This document shows, piece by piece, positions 29,595-53,204 of a DNA stretch of 64,000 nucleotides. The translations under genes were made by a program, and so were the position numbers. The notes under the pieces are model-generated. The model did no database searches and was not told the DNA's origin. It saw only the letters and a list, made by a program, of their open reading frames with translations. The DNA is taken from positions 62,001 to 126,000 of the forward strand of contig JAACJM010000132.1 of NCBI GenBank assembly GCA_013368315.1. Direction: 5' to 3'. The first letter of the stretch is position 1. Each line of letters opens with the position of its first letter. Source of the DNA: Tetrapyrgos nigripes (Eukaryota; Basidiomycota; Agaricomycetes; Agaricales; Campanellaceae).

Positions 29595-32582
29595 GTCGAA
29601 CAATAGGTCGATTGTTCCGTTGCTATCAACATCTTTTCTACATGGGGAAATGACAACTGTTTTTGTTGAACGGTCGACTGTGATGTGAATTGCATTGAAG
29701 CCGTCACATTCTGGCAGGTCCGTGATGAAGTCAGTTGTAATGGTACCAAAGGGCCGTTCCAGTATTTTGTTCGGGATTAAGGGTATGTGCGCAGGGTGGT
29801 TGTTTGCCTTGGTTAACTGGCAGGTAGCGCATCCTTCAACGTAGCTGTGAACGAATACTGACATACCGGGCCACCAGAATTCTCTGCTGACGAGTTCGTA
29901 TGTTTTGAATCGTCCCGGGTGACCGGCAGTAAGGCTGTCGTGATGCATTTTAACGATGTCCCATCTGAGTTGTTGATCGTTTGGGACGTAGATCTTCCCT
30001 CGGAACAAGATAATTCCGTCTTCATAGTTCCATTCCTGTAAATTCTTTGCCAAAGCGCGGGGTCCGTTGTCAAAGATAGTTTGTAACGCATTCACGACTT
30101 CAGCATCCTTATCCGGACATTCCTTAATCTGCCTTTTCAACTCCGCATCTCCTATTGCGGTTACCGTTCCTGGTCGTGTCGCTCGAATTCTGAAGAATCT
30201 AGGGTCAAGTAAGACCCTATCCTTGTTGTCGTTTTCAACCCCCTCTTTATGGTCCGATCTCCGAGAAAGTGGGTCACTTCGATTCAGATTTCCAGGTTTA
30301 TGGGTGAGCGTAAAGTCGAATCTGGTCAGGAACAAGGCCATCCTTGCTTGCCGTTGGCTAAGTTTTTGAGCCGTGGTGAAGTATCTAAGGTTGTCGTGAT
30401 CGGTCAAGATTTCGATGGTGTGTGGCCCTCCTTCCAGGTAGTGCCGCCAGGCTTCAAGTCCACGTATGATCGCTAGCAGTTCTTTGTCATGGATGTCGTA
30501 ATTCCGTTCGGTTTCGGATAACGCTTTTGACAGGTAGGCTACTGGGTGCCATTTGCCATCCGATCCTTGTAGTTGCAGGATACCTCCTGTGGCGTAATCT
30601 GACACGTCAACTTCTACTCGGTACGGTTTAGAATGATCGGGCATGAGAAGAACTGGTGAAGTCGTGAACGTATCTTTGAGTGCCTGGAAGGCCCTTTGAG
30701 CTTCCTCGGACCATTCCCATGGATGTTCCTTTTTTGTGAGATCGAACAGTGGTCGTGCGATTTTTGAGAAATCTCGTATGAAACGACGATAAAAGTTCCT
30801 GAAGCCGAGGAACGACTGTATGTCTTTGACGTTCCGTGGGACTGGCCATTTAGTTACGCCTTCAACCTTGACTGGATCCATCACCAATGTGTTATGTGAC
30901 ACGATGAGGCCGAGGAATTCTACTGAGTCAGTTTCGAAGGTGCATTTTTCTGGTTTAGCGTATAAGTCGTTATCATGGAGTTGTGCCAGTACTTGTTTTA
31001 CCATGTATCGATGTTCTTCTAGTGATTCCGTGAATATGAGAATATCGTCCATATAGATTACGACTTTTCCAGAGTTGATCAGGTCCTTGAATAAAGTGTT
31101 CATCATCGCTTGGAATGTGGCTGGAGAGTTCATAAGACCGAAAAACATCACCGTTGGCTCGAAGAGACTGCGGTTGGTTTTGAACACCGCTTTCCATTCA
31201 TCTCCCTTCTTGATACGTACGTTGTTATATCCCCACCTAAGGTCAATTTTGGAAAATATTCGTGCTCCTTTGAGTTTGTCTATGAGTTCTGATATAAGCG
31301 GTAAAGGGTATTCGTTCTTGACGGTTCCTTTATTTAGGGCACGGTAATCCTGTACTGGTCGTAGTTTTCCGTCTTTCTTTTTTACAAAGAAGAAGGGACT
31401 TGCCATAGGAGACTTCGACGGTCTTATGTACTCTTTCTCCAAGTTTTCCTTGATGAATTCATCGAGTTCCTTTTGTTCATTTGGGGACAGCGGATATGTT
31501 TTGCAAGGGCGTGGTTTAAAGTCCGATTTTAACTCGATAGTGTGATCCCATTCGCCACGTTTCGGTAATATTTCTGAGGTTTGTTTGTCAAAGACTTGTA
31601 GGAACTGATGATACTGCGAAGGAATCTTATCTTTAAGAGGTACATCGACCTGAACGTTCTGAGCCGCCTCTGCGAGTTCTTGTGCTTTCGTAAAACCCGC
31701 ACGGATGTTCAGATCCGGTGTCCCTGATGCTTCTTCATCGAACCTTTCCTCTTTCCCTAACAATTCTTCCATTACGTCCTGTTCCCACTGTTCTGGGATC
31801 GTATCTCTCCCGTAGTCGTCTTCGGTAAAGATTGCCGTTTCTTCTGAATTTCGGTGGAAGGATTGAATAGGAATTCGACGTCGTCGCCCTGCAATTTTCG
31901 ATTGGGCGATTGGTTTGAATCGTCCAACTGGTTCTATCCATCTGACTTGGTACTTCTTGTGATGGGTTCTTGGATCGATGACTGTGGGTTTCAAGGTTTT
32001 AGTTTTCAAGTGAAGAACGGGAGGTTTTGCTGTGATACATGTTTCTGGGCATCTAGTCATGTCTACCCGTGAGTCTGACCAGTCTATATCTGGGTTATGC
32101 TCTTCCAACCAGTCGGTACCAAGGATTATATCGTGATCCCCAATGTCCGTTACATAGAATTTGGCCTGTTCTTCATGGTACGCCTTGTTGTCTTGAGAGT
32201 AGATACGAAGATTTTGGATAGTGTATTCCCGTACCCATCCCATGGTGTTTTCAGAGCCGTCAATGTTTCGAACTGGGAACGGGTTTTTGATAGGAAGGAG
32301 GGTTAGTTGATTTCTTTGTGCGAATTGACTGTTAATGATTATGCCTTCTGCACTGCTGTCTATTAGAGCGTTTGCGTTGATTTTTCTGCCAGTAATTTTG
32401 CTGATTAGTTCAGTTTTGAGTGTGATTGATGGTATCTGTTTATTGCGAGTGATTGCTGACATTCTTATTTCTGAAGGAAAGGCTCGCTCACAAGAGGGGT
32501 ATAACACACTATATCGATTGTTTTTTAACTGTCCGGTGTACTGTTTTACTCCTACTGACGACGTAGCAGAGGATTGATTCAA
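29586..32582 (-). pseudogene. G1 pol, first part (protease, RT, RNase H, integrase start)
   Basis: The 998-codon frame opens at the gag stop with a TTG, not an ATG, so it needs a -1 frameshift or another bypass. Protease: ALIDSSAEGIIIN at 73-85, where DSG is expected (AGT for GGT, a CpG-type change at 32352-32354). RT: VKKKDGKLRPVQDYRALN, FGLMNSPATFQ and YMDDILIF, all intact. RNase H: Asp in VEVDVSDYA, Glu in NYDIHDKELLA, Asp in ILTDHDNL. Integrase: HHCC finger (HHDSLTAGHPGRFKTYELVS... CATCQLTK) and the first catalytic Asp (TTDFITDLP). The frame ends after LLFDNT because of an 8-bp duplication (29579-29594); the remainder continues at 29589. Confidence 0.92.
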
Positions 32583-34090
32583 AAATCCAATTTAGACATA
32601 ATGTCCTTCAAATAGACGGTTGCTTGCTCCTTTTCCTCTCCTTCTAACCCTTTAACCCTATTTACCATGTCGGAGATTTCTTTGATCGTGTTTCGAGATG
32701 AAGACGCCTGTGCTACTGTTACCGGTGGAGGGGATGCGGTTTCGGCTGCTCGAATAGTACGAGAGGGGAAAGTTCGAGAAGTGTTCTGAGACGACGTCTT
32801 TGGGAATGTTGGACATTCGTTGCTCATGTGTCCAGTTTGTCTACATGCGAAGCATGCTCCTGCCTTTTGAAGTCGGTCCCTTTCATCGGGTGTCAGTTTA
32901 GGCAGTAGATTAAAAGACGAGTTAGCACCTGATCCCATGAGCGCATTGACGCTTGCTACTGTTCTCCCTTGAGACGGACCTGAACTACTCTTCGTTGTTG
33001 AAGTATTCTTCCAGCGTCCCTGTCTTTCTCGTTCCTTCAACCACTCTAAATGAAGTTCCACAGCTCTTTCCCTATACTCGTCGAAGTCTTCCCATTTCAG
33101 ATACGTTCTTCCAACTGCTTCTCGGAGTTTGGGTGGCAACCCGTCCTGATAGAATTCCAACAATGCTGCTTCTCTGAATTCGGACTCTTCTCCATATGTG
33201 TCGAAGATGCTGTTGTAGCCGCTGATATCCGTCCCCTTCATTCTGGCAAACTTGATCTTCGTCCTGGCCACATCTTCTGAGGCTAAAGGTTTGAAGTCCT
33301 TTTTGAATCTATCACGTATCTGTTTTAAAGTTATCCATCTCCATTGGTTTGGTGTAGTCGCCAACTCCTCGTTTTCCTCATCTGCATCTCGTTCCGTCAA
33401 TCTCTGTGTTGCCCAATCTCCTCCTTTTTCTCCTGTGAAGAACGACAGGAACAATGAAACCTGGCTTTCCTCAGTCGGGTACTTTCCTTTATTCATGCGT
33501 AGATAGTTATTAAACTGGGCCAACCATCGTTTTGCCTCGCTACGTTCTCCGTTGAAGGGATCCGGTTTTCTCCCTCGTTCAGAAGTTCCGTTCGACCCAA
33601 TAGGAGGTGTATCAGCCATGACTGAGTCGTTTGGGTCTGATGGGTCTGGAGAAGGAGGTGTAGGGGGACGACGGGGGGCTACGGATGGTCCTTCGGCGGA
33701 TGGAATGATGGGCAAAGAAGGTGGGGAAGTGGGGTCGTTTGGTTCTGGTGGGTTATTGGAAGGTGTTTCTGGTACTGGGTTGGGTTCGGAAGGTTGGTTG
33801 GTAGGTGTAGAAGTTCCTTGGCCTGATCTGGTTCTCGGTTTTCGATGTGCCTTTTGAATCGCGAGTTCTTGGAGCTGGGTTATAACGTGTAGCCAATTCG
33901 GGAGTTCTACGTCGGTAAGTCGCTGAGTGTTGTATCTGTTCAGGCAAGGTTGTGCTTTACACGGAACCCAAGGATTGTCGCTGTTTTCAGGGATATAGCA
34001 GGCGTCTTGGTTCGATGCGGGGTGGAATACGTGTGGTCGGTTGGCACAACGGAGTTTCGGATCTGCAGATGCGGACCGTCGCTCAGTCAT
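32579..34090 (-). CDS. G1 gag polyprotein, intact
   Basis: The 503-residue Gag has an ATG at 34090. Its N-terminal Cys/His cluster (C15, H20, H23, C31, C44, C49) is also found in G2 gag. A long Pro/Ser-rich linker with weak homology value runs about residues 85-175. The capsid-like retrotransposon gag region covers about 180-345 (PFNGERSEAKRWLAQFNNYL). One zinc knuckle, C413-x2-C416-x4-H421-x4-C426 (CFACRQTGHMSNEC), binds RNA. The end is a charged helix, closing KLDF-stop. The stop overlaps the start of the pol frame at GATTTTTGA, a candidate -1 frameshift site. No lesion seen. Confidence 0.92.
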   Translation of the reverse strand: MTERRSASADPKLRCANRPHVFHPASNQDACYIPENSDNPWVPCKAQPCLNRYNTQRLTDVELPNWLHVITQLQELAIQKAHRKPRTRSGQGTSTPTNQPSEPNPVPETPSNNPPEPNDPTSPPSLPIIPSAEGPSVAPRRPPTPPSPDPSDPNDSVMADTPPIGSNGTSERGRKPDPFNGERSEAKRWLAQFNNYLRMNKGKYPTEESQVSLFLSFFTGEKGGDWATQRLTERDADEENEELATTPNQWRWITLKQIRDRFKKDFKPLASEDVARTKIKFARMKGTDISGYNSIFDTYGEESEFREAALLEFYQDGLPPKLREAVGRTYLKWEDFDEYRERAVELHLEWLKERERQGRWKNTSTTKSSSGPSQGRTVASVNALMGSGANSSFNLLPKLTPDERDRLQKAGACFACRQTGHMSNECPTFPKTSSQNTSRTFPSRTIRAAETASPPPVTVAQASSSRNTIKEISDMVNRVKGLEGEEKEQATVYLKDIMSKLDF

Positions 34091-34099
34091 ACACTGATT

Positions 34100-34462
34100 T
34101 TATGAAAGGTAATTGGGTCCCAGGATATAGGAAGATGCTAGGCCGTATTCGGGGGAAGGTGCTAATGGAGAGTAGTCGACGTATTCTTTGAGGAATAAAG
34201 GTCCTTTAATCTGAACCACAGTCTCTCCTGTATCAAAGTCCTCTTTTACTGTTATGTACGAGAATGTTGAGAGGACTACGTCACCTGAGATAAGTTTCCA
34301 CACCCAACGTCTTGTGCAAACGAAGTGTCGGTCGAGACTCCAAGGATCCGTTCGTAGTTTTCTTCCGTGAGAGACCGCGTATTCGGAGTACAAGAGATAA
34401 CGGGGAAGGGGAAATGGGATCCGTTCGTAATCTCGAGGGGTTTCAGGAGGTTCGATACGAAT
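34100..34462 (-). other. G1 leader ORF0 without methionine
   Basis: An open frame of 120 residues lies between the primer site and gag, ending 7 nt before the gag ATG and in the same frame as gag. It contains no Met codon. The product resembles the G2 leader frame: (I/F)EP....PFP(L/I)....Y(L/F)..Y near the start, then LD..(F/W)(V/I), then G(D/E)V.(L/I)S.(F/Y)..I.(V/I). The resemblance between diverged elements suggests it is or was translated, perhaps from a non-AUG codon or as a former N-terminal part of gag. A structured non-coding leader that keeps some similarity is the alternative. Confidence 0.4.
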
Positions 34463-34743
34463 TCAGGGGCATGGGGTAGACAGAGTGAAAAGGTTTCTTT
34501 GGATTTCAATTACAGAACCGGTCGACCACCTTACTCGGGTTTAGCAAGTCTGGTATTACGTCTCGAGACTGTGTAGACGGGGGATGACCTCGTGTAACTG
34601 CTCCTTGAGTAGTTCACGCCTGCCAACCTGTGAGGCTCCTCACACAGGGTAGAGTTGCTGGGCTTCTGCAGCACCGTAGGGGAGGGATAGGATAATAGGA
34701 AAGTCCAATACGATGGAAGGATTTTGTGAGGTGGGTGTATGGG

Positions 34744-34753
34744 AGTTTGTTCA
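34744..34753 (-). promoter_or_regulatory. G1 self-primer binding site
   Basis: TGAACAAACT (minus strand), just inside the 5' LTR, pairs with AGTTCGTTCA at the predicted RNA 5' end, with one C-A mismatch. No tRNA 3'-end complement (TGG start) is present. Self-priming from the RNA 5' end is known for Tf1/sushi chromoviruses. G2 shows the same arrangement with a compensatory change. Confidence 0.6.
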
Positions 34754-34755
34754 AG

Positions 34756-35235
34756 TGTCAAGGTTGTCGGTACACTCGATAACCACCCAAGTCACACAAT
34801 ACGAGAAAGCCGGTTTACAAGAGAATAGATTGATCAAGAGAGATAGAGAGATAAAGAGATAAAGAGAAAGTAAGCTGACTAGGCTCTACACTGCGTAGTA
34901 AAAGTACAGAGCAGAGACGAAGTGAACGAACTAAGGAGTAGGTTACAAAGATCACAGGTATATAAGTAAAATATGAACAGATGGGAAAGAGTGAGTAATA
35001 ATAGACGGTATCATGTGGAAATGTCAAGGGCGAGAGAATAATGAGTCAAATATGGATAGATGAAGGTACTGGATCATACGGAGTGATTGACAGTGAGAAT
35101 GTCCATAGATATAGAGAGATGGTAACTATAGGCGATGATGAGAAATGGTTGATGTTTATGGGGTTAGAGTGGGAAAAAGGTAGTAAAGAGAAAAGAATAG
35201 AAAGGAAATGAATAGGCGGGAGACGATTCATGACA
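34756..35235 (-). repeat. G1 5' LTR
   Basis: On the minus strand it begins TGTCATGAATCG and ends ACCTTGACA. A TATA box (tatataa at 34959-34965 on plus) lies about 32 nt before AGTTCGTTCA (34932-34923), the likely RNA start. That start block is complementary to the primer site at 34744-34753. Confidence 0.95.
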
Positions 35236-35992: not shown

Positions 35993-38370
35993 CCAGGTGT
36001 GAGACAAGTTCAAGGGTTTTGAACTGTCCAGGGTGACCAGCAACCTTGGTGTCATGGCGTTGGAGGTCATGGGAAGGAGGAACATAGATCTTGCCCTGGA
36101 AATACAGCAGCCCTTCATGTTCATCCCATTCCGCACTGTGAATAGAGCGAGTGTGGGACTTGTGCAAGGCTTGCACAGCACACATGACTTGTTCCTCTAG
36201 CTTGTTTTCACAAACAGTGAAGTGGACATCTCTCATGATCTTGACTTCTTCACCAGTCAAATCAATTGCAGTAGTGACAGCGATTGAGAACATCTCTGGC
36301 TTGAGTAGCAGAATGTCTGAATTGTCATCAGCACCAGTACCATGATCAGGTCAGCAGGACAATACATTGGGCTTGCCCATAGTGTGGCCAGGGCAATGGT
36401 GTAACTGGAAGTCAAAATGAGAGAGGTACAGGGACCAACGAGCTTGATGTTGATTGAGCTTTTTTACAGTTTGGAAGTACTCCAAGTTTTTATGGTCTGT
36501 CCAGATCTCCACAGGAAAATGTCCTCCTTTGAGGAAGTGTCTCCATTCCTCGAGGGCTTAGATGATGGCTAGCATTTCCTTATTGTGGATCTCATAGTTG
36601 CGTTCAACAGCATTAAGACTCTTGGAGTAGAAGGCAATGGGGTGCCACTTGTTGTCATCTGGAGACTGCTGGGATAAAACTGCTCCCATAGCATAGTCAG
36701 AGCTATCTGACTCCAAGTGATATGGTCGAGAGTTGTCAGGCATGGTGAGGACAGGGGAGGAGGTGATTAGGGACTTCATGATGTTGAAGGCATCCTGAGC
36801 ATCCTTAGACCAGTCAAACTTGAAGTCTTTTCAGGTCAGTTTGAACAGCAGTTGTGCATGATGAGAGAAATCCTGGATAAACCAACAGTAGAAGTTAGTG
36901 ACTCCAAGGAAGGAGGAGACCTCTTTCTTGCTTTTGGGTACAGGCCACTCTGCAACACCAGACACCTTGACGGGGTCCATTTCAACACGATTATGGGAGA
37001 TGATGATGCCAAGGTACTCAATGTGAGTCTTCTCAAACTCACACTTGTCTGCTCTAAGGTATAGCTTGTAGGACTAGGTGAGTCACATGACAATGCTCCT
37101 CAACAGTCTTGGTGTAGATCAAGATGTCATTGAGATAGACAGATACAACACCCTCCATAATTAGATCATGGAGAATGTCATTCATCATTGTCTGGAAGGT
37201 CACAGGGCTGTTGGTGAGACTGAAGAACATGACAAGGGGTTTGAAGAGACCACGGTTGGTGCAAAAAGCTGCCTTCCATTTGTTGCCTTCACGAATCTGG
37301 ATGTTGTTGAAACCCAGGCATACATCTAATTTAGTGAAGTATTGTGCACCTTTGAGGTTATTAACAAGTTTGTTAATCAAGGGCAATGGATAACAGTTCT
37401 TAATGGTCATCTGGTTTAGCACACAATAGTCTTGGACGAGTCGAAGGTTTCCATCCTTCTTCTTTACAAAGAAGACTGGAGATGCCATAGGGGATTTTGA
37501 GGGACGAATGCGACTGGTAGACAGATTCTCTGTGAGGAACTCATCAAGGGCCTTTTGTTCATTAGGAGCGAGTGGGTAGACCTTGCAGTTGGCAGGTTTA
37601 GAGTCAGGGACTAACTCTACTGCATGGTCCCATGGTTTGTGATCTGGTAGCACATCAAAAGAGTCCTTGGAGAAGACATCTATGTACTCATAGAAGTGAT
37701 CAGGGAGGCCATCGTTAGTGTTCCTCAAAGCCTTGGCATGTGCTTCTGCTAGACATTGAGAAGTGGTGCTTGTCACTCTGATGAACTCCAACTCTGGAGG
37801 AACTGAGGTAACAAATATGTGTTCACCTTCCTCAATAGAAACATCGTCAGGGAAGTCATTGCAGCCAAAGGTCCCAAGGTTGTTCATCTCATCTTCACCA
37901 GGGTCCAATTCAATAACATGGGGAGATGGACCTTCCCAACAACGTTCCAGAGCTTGGTGTTGACAATGGGCAGCAGACAGGGATAGTTGATGTTCCTGTT
38001 GTACCTCTTCATGACATGTAGAGTACTGGCTGAGCTTGATGTTGCCATTGTCCCAATCCACCTCAGGGTTATGGGCTTGTAGCCATCCATAGCCAAGAAT
38101 GATGTCCTGGCTGCCAAGCTGAGTGACTGCGAGCTGAATGCGTTCAGAGTGATCTTTGAAATGCAGGATAGTGTCCAAGATCTTGGTTACGGCTTGTTAG
38201 GAGTGCCATTGACATTGAAGATGGGGATAGGCTTCTGGAGTTTTCAGGTAGGAATAGAGTTCTTGGTGACAAACTCAGTGTTGGCATAACCCATACTAGT
38301 GGCTCCACTATTGATGAGCACACTGCCAGAGATCAGAGAGGCATTAGATGTGGACTGTAGCTCTATTGGG
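35993..38370 (-). pseudogene. G3 pol, frameshifted and truncated
   Basis: Protease: VLINSGATSMGYAN near 38320, where Asp is expected for the first Asn. RT (about 37640-37060): VKKKDGNLRLVQDYCVLN, FSLTNSPVTFQ and VYLNDILIYT, in which YLDD has become YLND through AAT for GAT (37131-37129). Frameshifts and a TAG follow. RNase H pieces: ESDSSDYAMGAVLS, NYEIHNKEMLAII, WTDHKNLEYF. Integrase is cut after GHPGQFKTLELVSH. The catalytic losses and stops show long inactivity. Confidence 0.88.
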
Positions 38371-38605
38371 ACTGTTAGGCAGTGGCTTCTGTCAGAGGAG
38401 ATTACTAATTTGCGAGGTAGATGGCATTCCCAATGCTTTAAACAGTGTCAAGGAACTGGATGATGAATGGAAGGAATGGAAGGAGACACAACCAAGGCAA
38501 TTACTTCACACATGGACTCAGGGACAGAGATACAATTGTTATCATTGGTAGAGTCTGTAGATAAACATGCGAAGTAATTATTTTTTGACCATGAGGGCAT
38601 GTCCA

Positions 38606-39906
38606 TCACTCCTGGTCCTTGGCAAAATCCTCCTGAGTAGGCTTGTTTGTCAGAGCAGTTTGAAAATCCTGGAAAGCTGCATACGCTTCTGTGATCTCCT
38701 GCCAGTCATCAATAGACATATCCACAATGCAAATATGTTCACATTGGTCTGGACATGCTGTGGAGAAGTGACCAGTCTTGCCACATGTGTAGCAGGTGCA
38801 GCAGGCTAGGAACCTCTGCTTTGAAGTGTCGACTTCCATGGGAATGCCTTGGGGAAGAGGAGCTTGGGTGGAGGCTGGCACATGAGGGGCAGGAAAGGGA
38901 GTGGCAGCAGGGGTAGGGAACTGGATTGTAAAAAGGGAACAACCCTGAGGTTGAGCACGAGAAGGGAAGGTAGGCTTAGGTGGACCAGGGGGCACACTTC
39001 TCTGAGCACCACAGAAGATTGCATCTTCCCGTTCATTCTTATCAAACCTCTTGGCCAGGGAATACCAAGCCATGATGTCCCATTCCTGTGGACGGGCCTC
39101 TGCTTCTGCAACCTTCTTCTCTAAAGCATGCCGCAGTCCATGTCAGAATTTGAGGACCACTGTCTGACCAAGATGTTTTGCGTCCTCAAGTCGGGCCTTG
39201 ATGGTAGGTTCAGTAGGGTTCGTGGAGTAGAGGACAGGCTCAATGTTAAGGCTAGCCATAGTGATAAGAGCACGGAAGTTGTTGACGTATTCATCAACAG
39301 AAGCTGTGCCCTGAAAGTAGGAGACACCTCTAGGGTAAGACTAGCCTGGGTGTGTTCGTCTTCTGGCATGAACTCCTTGATGAACTCAGTTTCGAATTCT
39401 CGCCAGGTATCGAAGTGGGAGGAGCCATAGAGGTGTCCGTGGTCAATGAGGCTTTGGCAGTAGGTGGCAGCACAAATTGTCCAGAAATAGGGCAATGCCC
39501 ACATGATCTTGGCAACGTCATCTTCAAAACAAACAGTGCTAGCATAAATGATCGCACTGGTCCACCAGACTCAGCTGTTAGCACATTGACCATCAAAGAT
39601 GACAGGTGGGGATGCCTTAGCATGTGAAGCTCCAGAAGAGTGATGAGAGGGAGGAGTAGAAGATGAAGCAGAGGATGGAGGTTGAGTGGGGTGGTGTGAT
39701 GGGGGTTGAGAAGGTGGAGGAGGATTTCTCCCTTGGAGGGCAGCGAGGATCTCAGTGAGTTGTTCACTCTGACTCTGAGAAGCCTGCTTTAAGTGGGCCA
39801 GACAAGCATCAAATTGTTCAGACGTCGTGGGAGACCCAGGTAATGAGGCAAAAGAAACAGAGGGTGGAGAGAACTGAGGAGTGGAGGAGGAGTCTTGGGG
39901 AACCAT
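38606..39906 (-). pseudogene. G3 gag, frameshifted
   Basis: MVPQDSSSTPQFS begins at 39906. A Pro/Ser-rich linker follows, then a capsid-like region (SHFDTWREFETEFIKEFMPE, about 39440-39380) in a second frame. A final frame has WDIMAWYSLAKRFDKNE and a zinc knuckle CYTCGKTGHFSTAC (about 38787-38746). At least two frameshifts separate these. It is not functional. Confidence 0.82.
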
Positions 39907-41206: not shown

Positions 41207-41694
41207 TGTCAAGAACGTTGTCACTTAGCAAAACCACCCAAGTCACACAATGAACGAGATAGATTCGGCGAGTTACAATGAGACGAGATAGGGAAAGAAT
41301 AATAGAGACGAGAAGAGATCGAGTAGCTGACTATGCTCGACACTGCACTGTACTAGGAGCGGAGTGGAGGCGAAGTGAACAGACTAAGGAACCTGGCTAT
41401 GAGATCTACGATATATATAGAGAAGAAGTGAATATGTGAGAATGTCCATGGAGCTTGGGGATCGGAGGAGATAAGAGTATGAGTCAAGTAAGAAAATATA
41501 TATGTGAGAATATCCATGGAGATAAAGGAAAACGGAGGAGTGAGTCATAGATCCAAGAGACGATGATGAGAGATAATTAGTATTTATGGGTTTATGGAAG
41601 GTGATAGAATGATGAACAAAAGTGAATAGATAGTAAAAGAGAATAGAGGAGAAAGTGAAGGGGGAAATGAAGGAGACGGAGGTGATTCATGACA
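41207..41694 (-). repeat. G2 3' LTR
   Basis: Copy of 48139-48626 with three differences. Two of them (T at 41400 and 41683) are CpG to TpG relative to the other LTR. Confidence 0.95.
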
Positions 41695-41710
41695 CCTACC
41701 CCCCTTTTTA
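41695..41710 (-). promoter_or_regulatory. G2 polypurine tract
   Basis: taaaaaggggggtagg (minus strand) directly precedes the 3' LTR start TGTCATGAATC. The ORF3 stop codon TAA is its first three bases. Confidence 0.85.
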
Positions 41711-42247
41711 GGTCGAGCTTTTGCCGGAGCTCAGGAGCCAACTTGTCCACTGCTTCGTCCACTGCTTCCTGATTTTCTTGTCCAAACCGCGCATAGTCGG
41801 CCAAGTCTCTGGTAAGTCGTGGGGAAAGTTACCCCATCCTGTTAGAGCTGACTCGCGTCCTTCCCATCCTCCTACCCAGTCACCCCATCCATCGTGAGTG
41901 TTGACATTCACTGTACCCCATCCAGCGTCGTCATCGTTGTTTAACTCTATGGTCCCTCCCCATGCGCTCGCATCCCCCCATCCTAGATTGTTTCGTTCGT
42001 TCAGTCGCAGACTGGCCGGATAGGTAATGCATCTTGACCGGTGCCCCTCCCCCATCCTACATCGTTTCGATGAGTCCTGTCCTGGCCAAATGCACTGGCG
42101 ACATCCGCTGTGTCTCCCCGCATGCCCTTCGTCCAACCTACAGCGCCGGCCTGAACGTTGGCCGTATCTGCATCGTCCGGTGTTGTCCGTTAATGGGTTG
42201 ATTGTTGTAGTGGTGGTTGAGACGGTGATAGCGATGGGTGTGGTCAT
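41708..42247 (-). CDS. G2 ORF3: Cys/His module plus GW/WG-rich protein
   Basis: The 179-residue protein starts at ATG 42247 and sits between pol and the purine tract. Residues about 26-78 hold C-x9-C-x5-H-x3-H-x2-C-x2-C-x10-C-x5-H-x3-C, which reads as a duplicated C-x(9-10)-C-x5-H-x3-(H/C) unit joined by a CxxC-type link and likely binds zinc. A shared SLR...NLGWGDAS block follows, then GW/WG dipeptides (GWG, AWG, GWG, GWG, GW, GWG) in an acidic, disordered-looking stretch. The end is KKIRKQWTKQW..LLSSGKSST, conserved with G1. No membrane segment or signal peptide is present. I know no named family. GW/WG clusters can bind Argonaute in other proteins, so a silencing-related role is conceivable but unproven. 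Confidence 0.82.
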   Translation of the reverse strand: MTTPIAITVSTTTTTINPLTDNTGRCRYGQRSGRRCRLDEGHAGRHSGCRQCIWPGQDSSKRCRMGEGHRSRCITYPASLRLNERNNLGWGDASAWGGTIELNNDDDAGWGTVNVNTHDGWGDWVGGWEGRESALTGWGNFPHDLPETWPTMRGLDKKIRKQWTKQWTSWLLSSGKSST

Positions 42248-42331
42248 GATGGAATGTGGTATGAGGATCCGGAAGTGTTTTGGTAGGATGTGGTTGAGTT
42301 CTGTTCTATCGTTCGAGTTCGATGTAGTCGG

Positions 42332-42338
42332 CTTTTAA
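42332..42338 (-). promoter_or_regulatory. TATA-like box before G2 ORF3
   Basis: TTAAAAG (minus strand) lies about 35 nt before CAGAACTCAACCACATCC (42303-42286), the same 18-bp block found before G1 ORF3. The ORF3 ATG (42247) is 38 nt further on. It is weaker than the G1 TATAAAAG. Confidence 0.45.
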
Positions 42339-42402
42339 CAAGTTCGTATCCGCAGTAGCGCGGAGTGGCCAAGTTTGTGATAGAATGTGACAGTAGACGC
42401 CG

Positions 42403-45400
42403 TTAATGTCGGTAAGCTCGGGGATGTTTCTGGTGGAATTCTTCGATCATGTCCTTTACCTTGGTCAGGTTTGACGTGGGTACCCAGGTGTTTTCGGAGT
42501 CGGGGTAGTCCAACCATTTGATCAGGTATTGAGTACCTTTTCTATTCCTGGTTGGTTTCGAGTCCAGTATCATTTCAACATTGTACTCTTCGTCTGCGTC
42601 TAGTAGTTCTGCCGGAGGATCAGGGTAGTTTGGTCCGTGGGCATCTGTTTCCACGTACGGTGTTAACAGGGAAGCGTGGAAGACGGGATGTATCTGCCAG
42701 GTTGTCGGTAATTTCAATTTGTAGTTAACCTGGCCGATTACTTCAATGATCTCGAATGGCCCATGACGATGATCGGACAACTTAGCTTTTGGTCTCGTTG
42801 TCTTCAGGTTTTTTCCGTTGAGTAGTACCCTATCTCTGATTTTGTACCCGGTCCAAGAAATGGAGTGGTTGCCATGCTGTGCATTCATCATTTCGGCAGC
42901 CGACGTCAAGCTTGCTTTGAGTTTGTCCCTGAGTTGGTTGAGGTTCTGGAGTCGTTCCTCTACTGTCGGTAGGTTAGAGGTTGGATTAAATGATGGGAAG
43001 AAGCGTGGTTGGTATCCATGTAAGAGTTCGAAGGGGGATTTTCCCGTTGCCGAATGTATTCTAGTGTTATGGCTGAATTCAGCGTATGGTAGATAGTCTA
43101 CCCAATCTTCTTGTCGATAGTTGCAAAAGATCCGTAGGAACTGTTCCAATTCCTGATTGTATTGCTCCGATTCCCCGTCGGTCTGTGGATGATAAGCGGT
43201 ACTAAGGGCTGAAGTGATCCCTAACTTCTCATGGACCGTGGCCATAACCTTGCTAGCGAACTGCGGACCCCGGTCTGATATCATCTTGTCCCATAACCCG
43301 TATCGTCGCCAAGTGTTGTCGAGTAGTAGATTCACCGTCCCGTCACTGTCAATTGTTTTCGTACACGGTGATATGATGACCGTCTTTGTAGACTTGTCAA
43401 CTGTGACGTGGATTGCGTTGAACCCCTTGCATTCGGGGAGATCCGTGATGAAGTCGGTGGTGATAGTTCCGAACGGACGCTCTGGGATTTCGGTGGGAAT
43501 CAAGGGGATCCGAGTGGGATGATTGTTGGTTTTCGTTGTTTGGCATTTGGCGCAGCCAGTTACGTAGTCCTTGACGAAGACTGACATTCCTGGCCACCAA
43601 AATTCCCTGCTGACTAGTTCGTAAGTTTTGTATCGTCCGGGGTGTCCCGTTGCCAGGGAGTCATGATGTAGTTTTACGATGTCCCGTCGGAGGTCGTTGT
43701 CTGCTGGCACGTAAATCTTTCCTCGGAATAAGATGATCCCATCTTCGTAATTCCATTCCTGTAGGTTTTTTACCAGCGAACGTGGTCCGTTTCGTAGGAT
43801 GACATCCAAGGCACTCACTACCTCTAGGTCCCTCTTGGGGCATTCCTTGATTCGCCTTTGTAGTTCTACATCTCCTATGGCTGTTACTGTTCCTTGTCTA
43901 GTTGCTCGGATTCGGAAGAATTTGGGATCGAGAAGGATTCTGTCGGTGTTATCGTTCTTGGTCCTGAGTTTGTGGTCTGGTCGTCTAGATAGCGGGTCAG
44001 CTTTATTAAGACTTCCGGGTTTATGTTGGAGGGAGAACTCAAATCGTGTCAGGAACAACGCCCATCGTGCCTGTCGTCGGCTGAGTCTTTGGGCAGTCTG
44101 GAAATATTCCAAGTTCCGGTGGTCGGTGAAAATTTCGATAGAATGGGGGGCTCCCTCCAAATAGTGCCTCCATGCTTCCAGTGCACGTATGATTGCCAAT
44201 AGTTCCTTGTCGTGGATGTTGTAGTTTCGTTCGGTTTCAGAAAGGGATTTGGAGATGTAGGCGACTGGGTGCCATCGATTGTCTTCCCCGGTTTGCATAA
44301 GTATTCCCCCCGTTGCGTAGTCTGATGCGTCTACTTCCACTCGGTATGGTTTCGTGTAATCTGGCATCAGTAGAACGGGTTTCGATGTGAAGGCTGTTTT
44401 GAGGGATTGGAATGCCTTTTCGGTCTCTGTTCCCCAGTTCCAGTGGTTGTCCTTCCTTGTCAGGTCGAAGAGAGGACGTGCAATCTTTGAAAAGTCCTTG
44501 ATGAAGCGTCTATAGAAGTTTCCGAATCCTAAGAACGCCTGAACTTCCTTTACTGTTTTGGGAGTTGGCCATTTGAGTACTCCTTCTACCTTAACTGGGT
44601 CCATTGATAGAGTGTCGTGAGAGACAATCAGTCCCAGAAAGTCGACTTTGTCTGCTTCGAATATGCATTTTTCAGGTTTGGCGTATAGGTTGTTGTCCCG
44701 TAGTCGTCGTAGGACTGTTCGGACCAATTCTCGGTGTTCGTCTAGGTCACGAGTGAATATTAAAATATCATCCATATAGACAACGATCTTCCCTTGGTCA
44801 ATGAGATCCTTGAAGATAGTGTTCATCATTGCCTGAAAGGTCGCTGGTGAGTTCATTAATCCAAAAAACATGACTGTTGGTTCGAATAGTCCGCGGTTGG
44901 TTTTGAAGGCGGCTTTCCATTCGTCCCCTTCCTTGATACGGATATTATTATATCCCCATCGTAGGTCGATTTTACTGAACACGTATGCATTTTTGAGTTT
45001 ATCGATTAGTTCTGGGATGAGGGGTAATGGATATGCGTTTTTCACAGTGCCCTTGTTGAGCGCTCTGTAATCCTGTACTGGGCGTAGTTTTCCATCCTTT
45101 ATCTTTACAAAAAAGAAGGGACTTGCCATTGGTGATTTCGATGGTTTAATGTATCCTTTTTCGAGGTTTTCGGTCAAGAAAGAATCGAGTTCGGATTGTT
45201 CGTTTGGAGAGAGAGGGTACGTTTTACATGCGCGTGGTTGGAAGCCGTCTTGTAGTTCGATCGCGTGATCCCAATGACTTCGTTGGGGTAAGCGTTCTGA
45301 AGTCTTTTTGTCGAACACCGATAAGTATTCATGGTACTGTTCTGGTATTTGTTCTTGTAACGAGGCTGCTGAGTTCGTGGATTTGTTTTCAGTGTTTTGT

Positions 45401-46320
45401 AGCGCTTGGGTAAAGGCAGCTCGGATACTCAGCTTGGTATCTGATAAGCCTTCATCAGGATCGGTGGGGGTGTCTAGGTATTCCATGACGAGTTCACTCC
45501 ATTGCCCTGCAACATTCCATTGTCCGGTCGTGTCTTCTGAGGAAAGCATTGGTCCTAAGTCGATCTGTTGTAATCGGGTCTTCTTAGGTCGTTGTGATCG
45601 ACGTTGTCCCGCTATCTTGGGTTGTGGCATTGTTTTGTGGGGACCCACGATGTCTTTGAATAACACTTGGTAGTCTCGGTGGTATGTTCTAGGGTCGATT
45701 ATTTCGGGTTTGTTCATTCTTGGAGGAGAGGTTTTTGACTTAACTTCGGTTTTTACTGGGGTTTTTTCCAGTGTACAAGCGCTGGGGCATCGCGTTAGGT
45801 TGATTTCCGATGTTGTCCAGTCAATCTCCGGGTTGTGGTGTCGTAACCAGTCGGTACCCAGAATGATGTCGTGATCTCCAATATCCGTGATGTAAAATTT
45901 GGCAGTTTCCTCGTGATGGGATTGGTGATCTGGGGTATAGATCCGTAGTTTTTGGATGGTGTAATGTTTTACCCATCCCATTACGTTTTCTGATCCATCG
46001 ACATTTCGAACTGGAAATGGTTTTTCTAAGGGAATGCGACTGAGATGATGTTTTTGGGCGAAGGTGTTATTAATGATGATCCCTTCTGCTCCACTGTCTA
46101 GTAGAGCGATTGCGTCGATTTTTCGTCCAGTTATTTTCCTGATCAACTCGGTTTTAAGCTCTATTGATGGGGTCTGTTGATTTCGAGTGACTGCCGTGAT
46201 TCTTAATTCAGATAGGGATCGTGGCTTACGAAAGGGTATAGGGCTCGTGTATTGCCTGTGTTTTACTGGTATGTATGTCCATGTTCCTCCTCCTGACGAC
46301 GTAGCAGGGGAGGTATTCAA
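42403..46320 (-). CDS. G2 pol polyprotein, uninterrupted
   Basis: The 1305-codon frame is in the -1 register to gag and starts with TTG at the gag stop, so it is read by frameshift or bypass. Protease: ALLDSGAEGIIIN with DSG at 75-77. RT: VKIKDGKLRPVQDYRALN, FGLMNSPATFQ, YMDDILIFT. RNase H: VEVDASDYATGG, NYNIHDKELLAI, IFTDHRNLEYF. Integrase: HHCC finger (HHDSLATGHPGRYKTYELVS, CAKCQTTK), Asp in TTDFITDLP, Asp in ISDRGPQFAS, Glu in YHPQTDGESEQYNQELE. A GPFEIIEV module and a C-terminal chromodomain (EMILDSKPTRNRKGTQYLIK, WLDYPDSENTW) follow. The chromodomain would target integration to certain chromatin. All catalytic residues are present. Confidence 0.95.
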   Translation of the reverse strand: MNTSPATSSGGGTWTYIPVKHRQYTSPIPFRKPRSLSELRITAVTRNQQTPSIELKTELIRKITGRKIDAIALLDSGAEGIIINNTFAQKHHLSRIPLEKPFPVRNVDGSENVMGWVKHYTIQKLRIYTPDHQSHHEETAKFYITDIGDHDIILGTDWLRHHNPEIDWTTSEINLTRCPSACTLEKTPVKTEVKSKTSPPRMNKPEIIDPRTYHRDYQVLFKDIVGPHKTMPQPKIAGQRRSQRPKKTRLQQIDLGPMLSSEDTTGQWNVAGQWSELVMEYLDTPTDPDEGLSDTKLSIRAAFTQALQNTENKSTNSAASLQEQIPEQYHEYLSVFDKKTSERLPQRSHWDHAIELQDGFQPRACKTYPLSPNEQSELDSFLTENLEKGYIKPSKSPMASPFFFVKIKDGKLRPVQDYRALNKGTVKNAYPLPLIPELIDKLKNAYVFSKIDLRWGYNNIRIKEGDEWKAAFKTNRGLFEPTVMFFGLMNSPATFQAMMNTIFKDLIDQGKIVVYMDDILIFTRDLDEHRELVRTVLRRLRDNNLYAKPEKCIFEADKVDFLGLIVSHDTLSMDPVKVEGVLKWPTPKTVKEVQAFLGFGNFYRRFIKDFSKIARPLFDLTRKDNHWNWGTETEKAFQSLKTAFTSKPVLLMPDYTKPYRVEVDASDYATGGILMQTGEDNRWHPVAYISKSLSETERNYNIHDKELLAIIRALEAWRHYLEGAPHSIEIFTDHRNLEYFQTAQRLSRRQARWALFLTRFEFSLQHKPGSLNKADPLSRRPDHKLRTKNDNTDRILLDPKFFRIRATRQGTVTAIGDVELQRRIKECPKRDLEVVSALDVILRNGPRSLVKNLQEWNYEDGIILFRGKIYVPADNDLRRDIVKLHHDSLATGHPGRYKTYELVSREFWWPGMSVFVKDYVTGCAKCQTTKTNNHPTRIPLIPTEIPERPFGTITTDFITDLPECKGFNAIHVTVDKSTKTVIISPCTKTIDSDGTVNLLLDNTWRRYGLWDKMISDRGPQFASKVMATVHEKLGITSALSTAYHPQTDGESEQYNQELEQFLRIFCNYRQEDWVDYLPYAEFSHNTRIHSATGKSPFELLHGYQPRFFPSFNPTSNLPTVEERLQNLNQLRDKLKASLTSAAEMMNAQHGNHSISWTGYKIRDRVLLNGKNLKTTRPKAKLSDHRHGPFEIIEVIGQVNYKLKLPTTWQIHPVFHASLLTPYVETDAHGPNYPDPPAELLDADEEYNVEMILDSKPTRNRKGTQYLIKWLDYPDSENTWVPTSNLTKVKDMIEEFHQKHPRAYRH

Positions 46321-47618
46321 AAATCCGCTTCTGTTACGAACTTCTTTAGTAGCCCTTCTTTTTCCTCTCCTGATAATGCTCCGATTCTGGCTGTGAGTTC
46401 TGAGATGTTGTCTGCGGTAGTGTTGGTTTTGGACTCCGAGGTCTCTGTGGTGACTGCGGCTTGTTTTATAGAGGGTCTCCAGGCCGTGCTATTGGGGACC
46501 GTTGGAGGTGTGTTAGGGAATGTCGGGCAATTGCGGGGTAGTCCCTTTCGATACCATTTCATTAACGCCTTGTCGTTATAGCCAGTATCGTCAGCGTATC
46601 GTTTGAATTGGGAGTTGTACTTATCTATATCAGCCAGAGCTCCCTCCATTTTGATGTGTTCGATCTTGGTTTGGGCCTGAGTTTCCCGAGCTGAGGGTTT
46701 GAAATCTCGTAAGAACTCTCGCTTCACTTTGTATAGAGTCCAGAGCCTTTTCTTCATTTCTGGTTTCGGAGCAGAGGAGTCCTCGTTGGTACTTGTATAC
46801 TCCTCATCACTATCACTGAAATCATCTTCCTCCTCGAAGACGGTTTTCATCATATTATGTGCCCATCGTTTCGCTTCATCTCCTGAGAATAGCGTGAGGA
46901 AGAATGATATCTTTTCGTCTTCGGTAGGGTAGACTTGGTCGTTGAGACGGAGATAGTTGTTAAATTCGGCCATCCAGTCCTTCGTTTGGTTCCGGTCTCC
47001 TGTGAACTTTTCTGGCTTTACTCCACGTTCCTTGGTAGTCGTATTAGGAAAGACCGAGGACTGAGTGTCCTGAGCCTTGTCGTCGGGTGGTGCGGTGTCT
47101 CGAGGGGCTCGAGTTCCTCCCGCAGCAGCGGTGGCCGAGTCAGGATTTTCAGACATTCTGAGAGCAGCGTGAATAGAGTGGAAATCGATCGGGAGTGTGG
47201 GGTTGATTGAGATGGGTTCCTGGGCTGCACTAGGAGTGCTGTCCGTCGGAGATCTGTCGTGAGGGGAATGGGGTTCTGAGGAGTGTTTGTGAGAAGGAGT
47301 TGGTGATGGGGTTGTGACAGGATCTGGATTTTCTGTGATTGGTTCTGTTGGAAGTGATTTGAAGAGTGAGACCGGTTCGATACCGATTTCTTGTTCTTCG
47401 ATTGAAAGGGGTCGGTTGTTTACTGAGAGTCGGTTGGGACACGGATGGTTCATACAAAGCTCCCACCGGTTTTGGTGTGAGAAGTAGCAATCTTGTTGTC
47501 TTTGGGGGACGTGTCCGTGAGGTCGTCTGAGGCAAACAAGTATGGGGGAGGAAACACGGCTGGGGTTTTGTGAGGCTGTGCGTGATCTAGTGGCTCTTGG
47601 AATTCCACTCTCGCTCAT
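46317..47618 (-). CDS. G2 gag, zinc knuckle deleted
   Basis: The 433-residue Gag has an ATG at 47618. The N-terminal Cys/His cluster (C-x4-H, DCYF, W-x2-C-x4-C) matches G1. After a Ser/Pro/Thr-rich linker, the capsid-like part holds KFTGDRNQTKDWMAEFNNYL (about residues 200-222) and an acidic loop. Near residue 345 the sequence jumps from WYRKGLPRN to CPTFPNTPPTVPN. G1 has more than 100 residues between the matching points, including CFACRQTGHMSNEC, so an in-frame deletion removed the nucleocapsid zinc knuckle (junction about 46530-46540). The end ADF-stop overlaps pol at GATTTTTGA. Confidence 0.9.
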   Translation of the reverse strand: MSESGIPRATRSRTASQNPSRVSSPILVCLRRPHGHVPQRQQDCYFSHQNRWELCMNHPCPNRLSVNNRPLSIEEQEIGIEPVSLFKSLPTEPITENPDPVTTPSPTPSHKHSSEPHSPHDRSPTDSTPSAAQEPISINPTLPIDFHSIHAALRMSENPDSATAAAGGTRAPRDTAPPDDKAQDTQSSVFPNTTTKERGVKPEKFTGDRNQTKDWMAEFNNYLRLNDQVYPTEDEKISFFLTLFSGDEAKRWAHNMMKTVFEEEDDFSDSDEEYTSTNEDSSAPKPEMKKRLWTLYKVKREFLRDFKPSARETQAQTKIEHIKMEGALADIDKYNSQFKRYADDTGYNDKALMKWYRKGLPRNCPTFPNTPPTVPNSTAWRPSIKQAAVTTETSESKTNTTADNISELTARIGALSGEEKEGLLKKFVTEADF

Positions 47619-47682
47619 TCACTCGTTTCAGCTTCTGGGAATAAGAGATCCCACTGTTCTCCTGAGACGTCTTCCCAAGAGG

Positions 47683-48102
47683 TCAGTGATCTACTCGGGT
47701 TTGGAGATATTCGTGGTATTCTTCTTGGTTGAACTCGAAGATGTCGCTATCTTCGTAGTCGGCGTGACTGAACCAATATGGGAGGGTCGTTTCTCCTAGT
47801 TGAACGAGGTAGCACGTATCTGCAATTGCAACGTAGCGTGGAGAGGTGTTTTCAGGTGATATCTTTATTCGGAGGTATTCGGAAATGGTCACTTCACCTG
47901 GGGTCCACGATCTCTTGTTGAGTATGATCCAATAGTCGTCAAGTTCGATAGCGTGCTTGTATACTGTTGTTTCGAGTTCCTCTTGGTAGTTTATGAAATA
48001 TTTTGATTTTTCGATAGGGAAAGGGTAACACGGTGGAGGTCGGGTTCGTAGGTTGTTAATAAGGGGTTCGAAGTTAAGAGCCAGTGTGTTTTTGTCGAGG
48101 GT
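47683..48102 (-). other. G2 leader ORF0 without methionine
   Basis: A 139-codon open frame starts right after a stop near the primer site and ends 62 nt before the gag ATG, in a different frame from gag. It has no Met codon. Its product (FEPLINN..., PFPIEKSKYFINYQEE, IELDDYWIIL, PGEVTISEYLRIKI) resembles the G1 leader frame. The acidic tail ends EEYHEYLQTRVDH. Translation would need a non-AUG start. Confidence 0.42.
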
Positions 48103-48126
48103 TTATTTGTGAGGTGGGTGTAAGAG

Positions 48127-48136
48127 AGTCCGTTCA
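48127..48136 (-). promoter_or_regulatory. G2 self-primer binding site
   Basis: TGAACGGACT (minus strand) pairs over 10 positions with AGUCUGUUCA at the presumed RNA start, with one G-U pair. Where G1 has a U-A pair, G2 has C-G, so the pairing is kept by a compensatory change. Confidence 0.65.
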
Positions 48137-48138
48137 AG

Positions 48139-48626
48139 TGTCAAGAACGTTGTCACTTAGCAAAACCACCCAAGTCACACAATGAACGAGATAGATTCGG
48201 CGAGTTACAATGAGACGAGATAGGGAAAGAATAATAGAGACGAGAAGAGATCGAGTAGCTGACTATGCTCGACACTGCACTGTACTAGGAGCGGAGTGGA
48301 GACGAAGTGAACAGACTAAGGAACCTGGCTACGAGATCTACGATATATATAGAGAAGAAGTGAATATGTGAGAATGTCCATGGAGCTTGGGGATCGGAGG
48401 AGATAAGAGTATGAGTCAAGTAAGAAAATATATATGTGAGAATATCCATGGAGATAAAGGAAAACGGAGGAGTGAGTCATAGATCCAAGAGACGATGATG
48501 AGAGATAATTAGTATTTATGGGTTTATGGAAGGTGATAGAATGATGAACAAAAGTGAATAGATAGTAAAAGAGAATAGAGGAGAAAGTGAAGGGGGAAAT
48601 GAAGGAGACGGAGGCGATTCATGACA
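48139..48626 (-). repeat. G2 5' LTR
   Basis: On the minus strand it begins TGTCATGAATCG and ends GTTCTTGACA. A TATA run (48343-48351) lies about 34 nt before AGTCTGTTCA (48317-48308), the presumed RNA 5' end. That block pairs with the primer site at 48127-48136. Confidence 0.95.
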
Positions 48627-50970: not shown

Positions 50971-51289
50971 AACTGAGTGTGGCACTGTAAATGTTTCAGA
51001 GAGTGAAGTTGGGCCTTGTTGGAGTGTACAGCTTCAGAAATTGAAATAAGAGATGGAGAAGGGCATCAACTCATCCATAGAAAGATGGGAAAGTACCCTA
51101 TCCACCAATTCAGGGGACCTAGATGCAATGAGTACAATGACAACAGGTAGCCAAAAGGAGCACACAGCTCCCCAAAATCATACATAGTGATGGTTGACAA
51201 CAACAAAGACAGGTGAGCGGCAAAGACACAGGTGAGGTATATCTTGTTCCAAAGTTAAATGAGACAAGAATTGGCCCATAATAAGGATA
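50971..51289. other. No gene seen
   Basis: A/T-rich sequence without recognised motifs. It leads into the tandem array that starts near 51290. Confidence 0.4.
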
Positions 51290-52025
51290 TATTGAAGGTA
51301 AACTCTCCTGCTCTCATGTACCTTCCCCTCACTCACCCAAAACTCATATCTGTAGATCCAGAGAACCTCTTAGTATGGGGTTTCTTTCCCTGTTTTTCTG
51401 GAGTTTAATGAGGCCAGAAATGCCCCAGATAAAAAATAAATTGATGGTAAACTTCCCAGCACTCACATACCCTCCCCTCACCCACCCAAAAACTCATATC
51501 TCCATATCCAGAGTGTCTATGACTCCATGTTTTCTTTCCCTCTTATTCTGAGGTTAAATGAGGCCAGAATTGCCCCTGAACAAAAATATATTGATGGTAA
51601 ACTCCTTCACTCTCACATACCTTCCCCTCACCCACCCAAAAACTCATAGCTCCACATCCAGAGCACCTATAACTCTAGGTTCTCTTTTCCCCTTATTCTG
51701 AGGTTAAATTAGGCCAGAATTTCCCCAGAACAAAAATATATGAATGGTAAACTTCCCCCTCACCCACCCACAACTCATATCCATAGATCCAGAGTACCTC
51801 TCAGTATGGAGGTTGTTTCCCTATTTTTCTGGAGTGAAATGAGGCAAGAATTGGCCCAGACCAAATATATATTGATGGTAAACTACCCTACCTATTATTG
51901 TGGGCTTTTTTTCCTTCTCAATCTAGAGTTAAAGGAAGCCATAATTGGCTCAGCATACCCCCCCTCACCCCTGCAAACTTTTGTTTCCCATCCAAAATAG
52001 CTCCTTAAAATGAATTCATAATAAA
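51290..52025. repeat. Tandem array of about 150-bp units
   Basis: About five imperfect units are each marked by ttgatggtaaact (51290, 51441, 51590, 51742, 51873, and a weak one near 52010). They are followed by cccctcacccacccaaaaactcat, atccagag and ttaaatgaggccagaa. Unit length varies from about 130 to 152 bp. Confidence 0.8.
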
Positions 52026-52248: not shown

Positions 52249-52436
52249 TGCTTTTTAGAGATACGCAATCACTTACTGTAAGCAAATAGATCACATGAAT
52301 TTTTCAGCTCAATATAGTGATAAGTTCCCATGGATCACAGATCCGCGTTTGAATGCGCAAAAATTTGGGTGGGTAGACATCAAAAAATAATGATTACTAT
52401 AAATAGTAATTGTAATCCCTTTGAGTTACTTTAGCC

Positions 52437-53204
52437 ACACTCTGGACACAACCACACAACCTGCACGCACCATGGACACACTCTGGACGCAACCTGCGCG
52501 CACTCAGGACACAACCTCCACACACTCTGGATGCAACCTGTGTGCACCCTGGATGCAACCTGCACGCACACTGGATGCAACCTGCGTGCACTCTGGATGC
52601 AACCTGCGCACACTCAGGACGTAACCTGCACGCACTCTGGATGCAACCTGCATGCATCCTGGACGCAACCTACGCACACCCTGGACACAACCTGCGCACA
52701 CCCTGGACACAACCTGCACACACCCTGGACGCAACCTGCACACACCCTGGACGCAACCTGTGCACACCCTAAACGCAACCTGTGCGCACTCTGGACACAA
52801 CCTGCGCACACTCAGGACGCAACCTGCATGCACCCTGGATGCAACCTATGCACATCCTGGACGCAACCTGCGCGCACTCTGGACACAACCTGCGCACACT
52901 CAGGATGCAACCTGCACGCACCCTGGATGCAACCTGCGCGCACCCTGGACACAACCTGCACACACCCTGGATGCAACCTGCATGCACTCTGGATGCAACT
53001 TGCACACACTCTGGATGCAACTTGCACACACTCTGGACGCAACCTGCATGCACTCTGGTGGACGCAACTTGCACGCACTCTGGACGCAACTTGCACACAC
53101 TCTGGACACAACTTGCGCACACTCTGAATGCAACTTGTGTGCACTCTGGACACAACCTGCGCGCACTCTGGACGCAACCTGCACGCACTCTGGATGCAAC
53201 CATT
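52437..53204. repeat. 21-bp minisatellite, about 36 units, open in several frames
   Basis: Variants of ctctggacgcaacctgcacgca repeat every 21 bp through the block, with one 24-bp unit near 53058. Because 21 is a multiple of three and stop codons are rare in the unit, long frames stay open on both strands, coding heptapeptide repeats such as HSGCNLH or CRLRPECAQ. There is no start context, neighbouring exon or known family, so I treat it as DNA repeat rather than a gene. Confidence 0.9.

Follow-up and report, generated by a model that had tools for sequence, protein, structure and literature searches.

Additional open reading frames (ORFs), lying beside gag and pol, are found in LTR retrotransposons of plants, fungi and animals, and the accessible text of a review on the subject (PMC12786077) names added domains such as a dUTPase and an AlkB demethylase. 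A second group of proteins that is relevant here is characterised by paired glycine and tryptophan residues, the GW/WG motifs. In the P1 protein of sweet potato mild mottle virus these motifs are required both for AGO1 binding and for silencing suppression (PMC2904775), and the same paper names Tas3 among cellular GW proteins. In Cryptococcus, a basidiomycete yeast, the GW proteins Gwo1 and Gwc1 have been connected with RNAi (PMC4778953).

The gene described here, ORF3, is carried by chromoviruses of the basidiomycete Tetrapyrgos nigripes and has something in common with each of these systems. Like the additional ORFs it is a non-gag-pol gene that has been kept, in this case downstream of pol; compared by description, as far as the accessible review text goes, it differs in having no Pfam match in place of a named domain. 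With P1 it shares several GW/WG pairs set amid small and acidic or amide residues, and a place in a parasitic element of an RNAi host. The P1 protein and its carrier are unrelated to ORF3 as far as known, and the Argonaute binding shown for P1 would in ORF3 be predicted from the motifs. Moreover, the zinc-type ORF3 contains Cys/His fingers, whereas a zinc finger is unmentioned in the accessible text of PMC2904775. Gwo1, Gwc1 and Tas3 are likewise GW/WG proteins of fungal silencing, a likeness taken from their descriptions, but these are host genes and ORF3 is transposon-borne. No such ORF was found in the titles and abstract openings of the literature on chromovirus additional ORFs, GW/Argonaute suppressors, transposon anti-silencing and Tetrapyrgos nigripes, a scope outside which most subscription papers fall.

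The window, which is the whole stretch of 64,000 nucleotides that was analysed, contains two such elements, both on the minus strand. Chromovirus G1 (41207–48626) is bounded by LTRs at 41207–41694 and 48139–48626 that are 99.0% identical and is flanked by the target-site duplication AAGTC, and chromovirus G2 (27231–35235) has LTRs at 27231–27710 and 34756–35235 that are 99.6% identical and the target-site duplication CACAC. Each has a gag and a pol in which Pfam recognises reverse transcriptase (RT), RNase H, integrase, SH3_Tf2-1 and a chromodomain, the organisation of a Ty3/Gypsy chromovirus, with the pol of G2 split over two frames. The initial annotation proposed that both have an extra gene following pol and preceding the purine tract, and such a gene is indeed present on the minus strand. 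ORF3 of G1 (41708–42247) runs from ATG to stop over 179 amino acids and starts 155 nt after the pol stop; on the plus strand of the same interval the frame that was read is interrupted by stops. ORF3 of G2 (27815–28294) is 159 amino acids long, contains a 19-residue tandem duplication inside its GW region and ends early at a premature in-frame TAG. The two proteins match with an E value of 2e-37 and 43% identity over 165 aligned positions.

Both genes belong to a large family. A search of the 98.46 Mb genome (587 contigs) gave at least 150 matches for each query, these being the best 150 of 529 candidates for G1 and the best 150 of 496 for G2, and the combined lists hold at least 230 start positions, of which a few represent halves of a single copy. 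Many other copies thus carry homologues, the lack of which would have spoken against the gene. Sixty loci were taken, from which 14 were left out as broken, short or frameshifted, and the 46 intact frames (25 G1-like and 21 G2-like) are all of the zinc type. The end of pol was recognised in 44 of these 46 and is followed, in varying frames, by ORF3 after 146–175 nt in 40 loci; in four G2-like loci, where the pol stop comes earlier, the gap is 277–316 nt. ORF3 is a conserved extra gene that the LTRs enclose together with gag and pol, and a real accessory gene in one chromovirus branch of Tetrapyrgos nigripes. In one gene model of this species, D9758_002048, the C-terminal half of an ORF3 is joined to a Tc1-like DDE transposase, which is either a fusion or an annotation artefact.

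The initial annotation took the similarity between the two proteins as a sign of selection, and the copies bear this out. By the Nei-Gojobori method, as a ratio of sums, dN/dS is 0.135 among G1-like copies (300 pairs) and 0.156 among G2-like copies (210 pairs), with every pair below 0.5; selection is purifying, and the ratio stands at about 0.14 instead of near 1. Between the families the value is 0.21, a rough one with dS near saturation and 205 of 525 pairs undefined. The C-terminal part of pol at the same loci gives 0.071 (16 copies) and 0.090 (17 copies), so that ORF3 is constrained, yet about twofold more loosely than this part of pol. Constraint is uneven along the protein. The Cys/His module is the lowest region in G1 (0.060) and the second lowest in G2 (0.083), where the stretch containing NLGWGDAS is lowest (0.058); the GW part has values of 0.202 (G1) and 0.174 (G2), and the N-terminus of G2 reaches 0.515. 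These ratios, together with the silent codon changes described below, speak against ORF3 being a chance open frame.

The Cys/His module of G1 (42029–42172, minus strand; residues 26–73) contains the nine positions that had been read with one spacing in both elements, C-x9-C-x5-H-x3-H-x2-C-x2-C-x10-C-x5-H-x3-C. Each is 96–100% conserved in the 25 G1-like and 21 G2-like copies; the codon itself varies synonymously at eight of the nine in G1 and at five of the nine in G2. An alignment of 21 copies from three subfamilies shows no variation at any of the nine. A fourth subfamily, represented here by the copies L081 and L133, has Val at the fifth position, which is the first Cys of C-x2-C, and L081 has also lost one His of the module. 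Because of this Val the core is likely to comprise eight positions, and the best reading of the module is a pair of fingers with four ligands each, C-x9-C-x5-H-x3-H followed by C-x10-C-x5-H-x3-C. These two fingers look duplicated: when the ligands were held fixed and the remaining residues shuffled, four copies gave P values of 0.0000, 0.0002, 0.0074 and 0.0054. Judging from spacing and conservation, the fingers are predicted to bind zinc and probably serve nucleic acid.

A familiar comparison is the retroviral-type CCHC zinc knuckle, likewise a small Cys/His module within a retroelement. That knuckle is spaced C-x2-C-x4-H-x4-C whereas the ORF3 fingers are spaced C-x9/10-C-x5-H-x3-H/C and have no match to it in Pfam, and gag has a knuckle of its own. 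ORF3 and both modules match zero Pfam families, and the description of the Cys/His module as new-looking holds for Pfam, NCBIfam and PDB sequences, scattered sub-threshold matches apart. One PDB sequence search gave a single match at an E value of 1.9 and another gave none. The sub-threshold Pfam matches were judged to be due to chance; the zinc type gave Hirudin, InlJ_IG, SCD, Trypan_glycop and DUF3716, and the W-type protein introduced below gave MLKL_N. AlphaFold, supplied with three sequences, returned a mean pLDDT of 30.1. Whatever ORF3 does, it adds a selected gene with a new-looking Cys/His module to elements that are usually called gag-pol only.

Beyond the fingers lies a Trp/GW-rich stretch (41801–41989 in G1, minus strand; residues 87–149). 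Tryptophan makes up 7.1% of the zinc-type ORF3 vs 2.0% of the pol part, and past residue 85 the Trp columns are conserved at 99.3% in G1 and 99.5% in G2, compared with 79.9% and 90.0% in the remaining columns. Of the glycine columns adjoining Trp, eight of ten in G1 and three of seven in G2 are encoded by two or more different codons. The abundance of GW/WG pairs had been pointed out for both elements. Against 2000 shuffles of the same composition the excess is clear in two G1-like copies, which have 10 and 11 pairs where the shuffles average 3.2 and 4.0 and none of the 2000 is as high; it is weaker in two G2-like copies, which have 7 and 8 pairs against means of 3.5 and 3.7 (P 0.056 and 0.02). 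The four positions on either side of a Trp are filled mostly by G, N, D, T, A and E. ORF3 thus holds several conserved GW/WG pairs among small, polar and acidic residues, as is typical of Argonaute hooks.

The same slot is occupied in a sister family by a different gene, a Trp/GW-rich ORF unlike the zinc-type ORF3, which was first met in the copy L076 and is referred to as the W-type. It gave 71 matches and 44 typed places, is 9.0% Trp and has GW/WG pairs, the excess of which is seen in five copies (P 0.0005 to 0.0135); up to four positions away from a Trp, the commonest residues are D, N, G, T, W and S. No Cys/His module is present in the W-type copies that were read. Its dN/dS is 0.25 (17 copies, 135 pairs). 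Of the best 150 of 913 candidates in a search with SH3_Tf2-1, at least 68 have a zinc-type ORF3 within the next 2.5 kb and at least 16 have a W-type ORF there; for 66, neither type is among the matches listed. Seven of these 66 were examined: five (L075 and L077–L080) represent another chromovirus branch with no ORF3 seen within 2 kb, and two (L081 and L082) carry a divergent or broken zinc-type ORF3.

The C-terminal part of the L076 pol is 87–89% identical to that of G1, 89–92% to the fourth subfamily and 69–73% to G2 and G3. In a tree of this part, based on a short stretch with one W-type copy and with the root placed on ORF3-less elements, the W-type and the fourth subfamily form one group with a support of 0.98, which falls inside G1 or next to it. 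From this tree it is likely that the fingers are ancestral in the branch and that the W-type is derived. The DNA of L076 matches that of the zinc-type L081 at 83% over 503 nt up to a TATA-like box, and shows no match across ORF3; similarity returns, at 78%, with the inverted repeat and continues into the LTR. When L076 is compared with L133 and L005, the match stops 19–45 nt earlier. L081 and L133, which belong to one zinc subfamily, match throughout at 82%. A similar DNA gap also separates L081 from the zinc-type L005 of G1, the proteins of which align at 44%, so that a DNA break alone is no proof of a swap and the sharp L076/L081 boundary was not accepted as a proven cassette exchange. A profile comparison of zinc-type and W-type proteins gave a probability of 24% over 47 columns, and nine single comparisons gave P values from 0.29 to 0.000. 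The W-type may have arisen by replacement or by strong divergence from a common GW part. An exchange of ORF3 between the G2/G3 and fourth subfamilies was also considered and set aside, since the sums of pairwise distances favour the pol grouping; the identity of the L081 ORF3 is 49–57% to G2/G3 and 40–44% to G1, with G1 and G2 at 46–48%.

ORF3 lies between conserved DNA blocks. The sequence GTYTACTGTCA is found at the end of pol in G1 (42388–42398, minus strand) and in G2 (28450–28460, minus strand), and in the 64 kb it occurs only at these two places and not in the LTRs, with 0.11 occurrences expected. It is present in exact form at the expected place in 45 of the 60 ORF3 loci and is common to zinc-type, fourth-subfamily and W-type elements; it could be a promoter or an RNA element. 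Further downstream come a TATA-like sequence, GTTAAAAG, before the ORF3 of G1 (42332–42339, minus strand) and TATAAAAG before that of G2 (28382–28389, minus strand). The distance from the TATA-like box to the ATG is 94–99 nt in G2 and 88–92 nt in G3; TATA[AT]A[AG] is found in 20 of 21 G2 and 13 of 15 G3 copies, TATAA[AG] in all 21 G2 copies and TTAAA in the upstream stretch of all 25 G1 copies. Twelve W-type upstream stretches, inspected by eye, show a TAAAA box in ten, TATAAGG in one and neither in one. The 65-nt leader before the ORF3 start is free of ATG in all 46 copies, where 200 shuffles have a mean of 11.6 and a minimum of 3, and the interval from -150 to -101 likewise contains few, with 4 in 2300 nt. 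The base at -3 is A or G in all 46. The simplest reading of these features, supported by comparison with shuffled sequence, is that ORF3 probably has its own promoter and a short mRNA, although the scarcity of ATG in the interval further upstream counts against it. Splicing was discounted as a route to ORF3, no splice acceptor common to G1 and G2 being seen before the ATG by eye rather than in a formal test.

At the other end, an inverted repeat of the form GAGCT..AGCTC overlaps the 3' end of the G1 ORF3 (41715–41732, minus strand), next to the polypurine tract (41699–41710, minus strand), and an inverted repeat also precedes the purine tract of G2 (27726–27749, minus strand). GAGCT-N4..8-AGCTC is present in 42 of the 46 copies, while 43 have the purine tract and 44 the beginning of the LTR; among the W-type stretches, several of which stop short of the repeat, it is seen in 10 of 18. 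The repeat is translated as SSGESS or alike in the zinc type and, where the frame reads through, as APVQA in the W-type, and dS between G1 and G2 is lowest over it (0.93, against 1.24–2.21 elsewhere in ORF3). For these two reasons much of the shared C-terminus is to be attributed to DNA constraint. The L.SSG.SS similarity that the initial annotation noted coincides with an inverted repeat conserved as DNA, is partly a matter of nucleotide constraint and had been over-read as protein selection; in the G2 of the window the frame ends before this motif. As RNA, the repeat of G1 folds no better than its shuffles (z 0.74, with 151 of 200 as good) and that of G2 has a z of -1.09, with 25 of 200 shuffles as good.

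The host appears equipped for RNAi, since its genome, with 21 Piwi, 26 RdRP and 2 Dicer_dimer exon matches, encodes Argonaute, Dicer and RdRP. That an element in an RNAi host encodes a small, GW-rich protein suggests that ORF3 may be an Argonaute-hook silencing antagonist, a proposal that is put forward tentatively and with somewhat less than even confidence. In this mechanism ORF3, encoded in the 3' slot between the conserved DNA blocks after pol and the inverted repeat before the purine tract, would be made from its own short mRNA, the GW/WG motifs of its tail would hook Argonaute and so weaken or divert the RNA silencing directed at the element, and the fingers would hold the protein on the RNA or chromatin of the element. 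In favour of the hook, the family is under purifying selection and past residue 85 its Trp columns are conserved above the rest, the context of the ORF3 tryptophans is like that of the WG/GW motifs in the accessible account of P1, and the W-type ORF in the same slot is also Trp/GW-rich and constrained, in a host with RNAi genes. The connection of GW proteins with RNAi in Cryptococcus points the same way. The weak GW/WG excess in the G2-like copies tested counts against it, Trp-rich sequence could serve other contacts, and ORF3 is constrained, neither fast-evolving nor positively selected, where an arms race might leave faster change. If ORF3 does hook Argonaute, it would represent a protein answer of a fungal retrotransposon to RNAi, and the many copies within this one genome would make the contest between host and element readable.

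A more specific form of this proposal, and one that is rather unlikely, is that the promoter-like stretch and the inverted repeat bound a slot in which Argonaute-hook proteins have been swapped, as an exchangeable anti-silencing cassette in the contest with RNAi. If true, the slot would be the retrotransposon counterpart of the GW suppressors of plant viruses. Two Trp-rich genes in one slot constitute a natural experiment, in which the features they have in common are the candidates for function.

Among the other explanations, that of a packaging or reverse-transcription helper survives best, although it is unlikely. Here ORF3 would be a second nucleocapsid-like protein, its fingers binding the element RNA and its Trp tail contacting Gag or Pol, which accords with the conservation of a Cys/His module within an LTR element, invariant in the 21 aligned copies, and with the retention of ORF3 beside pol and the purine tract. 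A CCHC knuckle is, however, already present in the gag of the window's G2 and of all four other G1-like copies read (a fifth stretch in this comparison, from the G2-like copy L132, fell outside gag), and the W-type ORF has no Cys/His module. Hence the hook is favoured over packaging, both because gag has its own knuckle and because the fingers can be absent while the richness in Trp/GW stays. The gag of the window's G1 (46320–47618, minus strand) is without a C-x2-C-x4-H-x4-C knuckle, seemingly through an internal deletion there. This had prompted the idea of ORF3 as a nucleocapsid substitute, which was abandoned since the four other G1-like gags have the knuckle.

ORF3 may alternatively act with the pol chromodomain as a chromatin or integration-targeting factor, steering the element to silenced chromatin where Argonaute and the RNAi complexes, left unblocked, possibly serve as a beacon. 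Both the chromodomain and the RNAi genes of the host are compatible with such a role, but the chromoviruses of the other branch (L075 and L077–L080) have a chromodomain with no ORF3 seen, and the explanation is considered improbable. Regulation of transcription or export of its own element by ORF3, to which the Cys/His fingers and the conserved DNA blocks nearby would be suited, is improbable to at least the same degree, as GTYTACTGTCA is found in the window at the two pol ends only and is absent from the LTRs. That ORF3 is untranslated, its open frame reflecting conserved DNA or RNA elements, draws on the nucleotide constraint at its 3' end but is largely refuted by a whole-frame dN/dS far below 1 and by synonymous variation in the codons for most of the invariant Cys/His residues and for many Gly residues.

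Relatives of the zinc type in protein searches amount to one protein, from the same species, with none from other species in databases that are poor in fungal transposon DNA; the corresponding searches with the W-type returned none, and viral contigs contained no ORF3 relative. As a database that holds one protein for a many-copy family says little on distribution, a restriction of ORF3 to this species is weakly supported. No captured host gene that could be the source of ORF3 is found among the matches listed, from databases poor in fungal DNA.

Other repeated DNA accompanies the two elements in the window. Open frames at 37054–39788 (minus strand) indicate a third related element, probably broken, in which the segment 37181–37566 resembles the RT regions of both G1 and G2 at the DNA level, with about 66–67% similarity. 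Tandem repeat arrays are present at 51242–51922, with a period near 150 nt, and at 52436–53201, and an inverted pair of 598 nt, 93.6% identical, is formed by 25788–26385 and 57539–58136.
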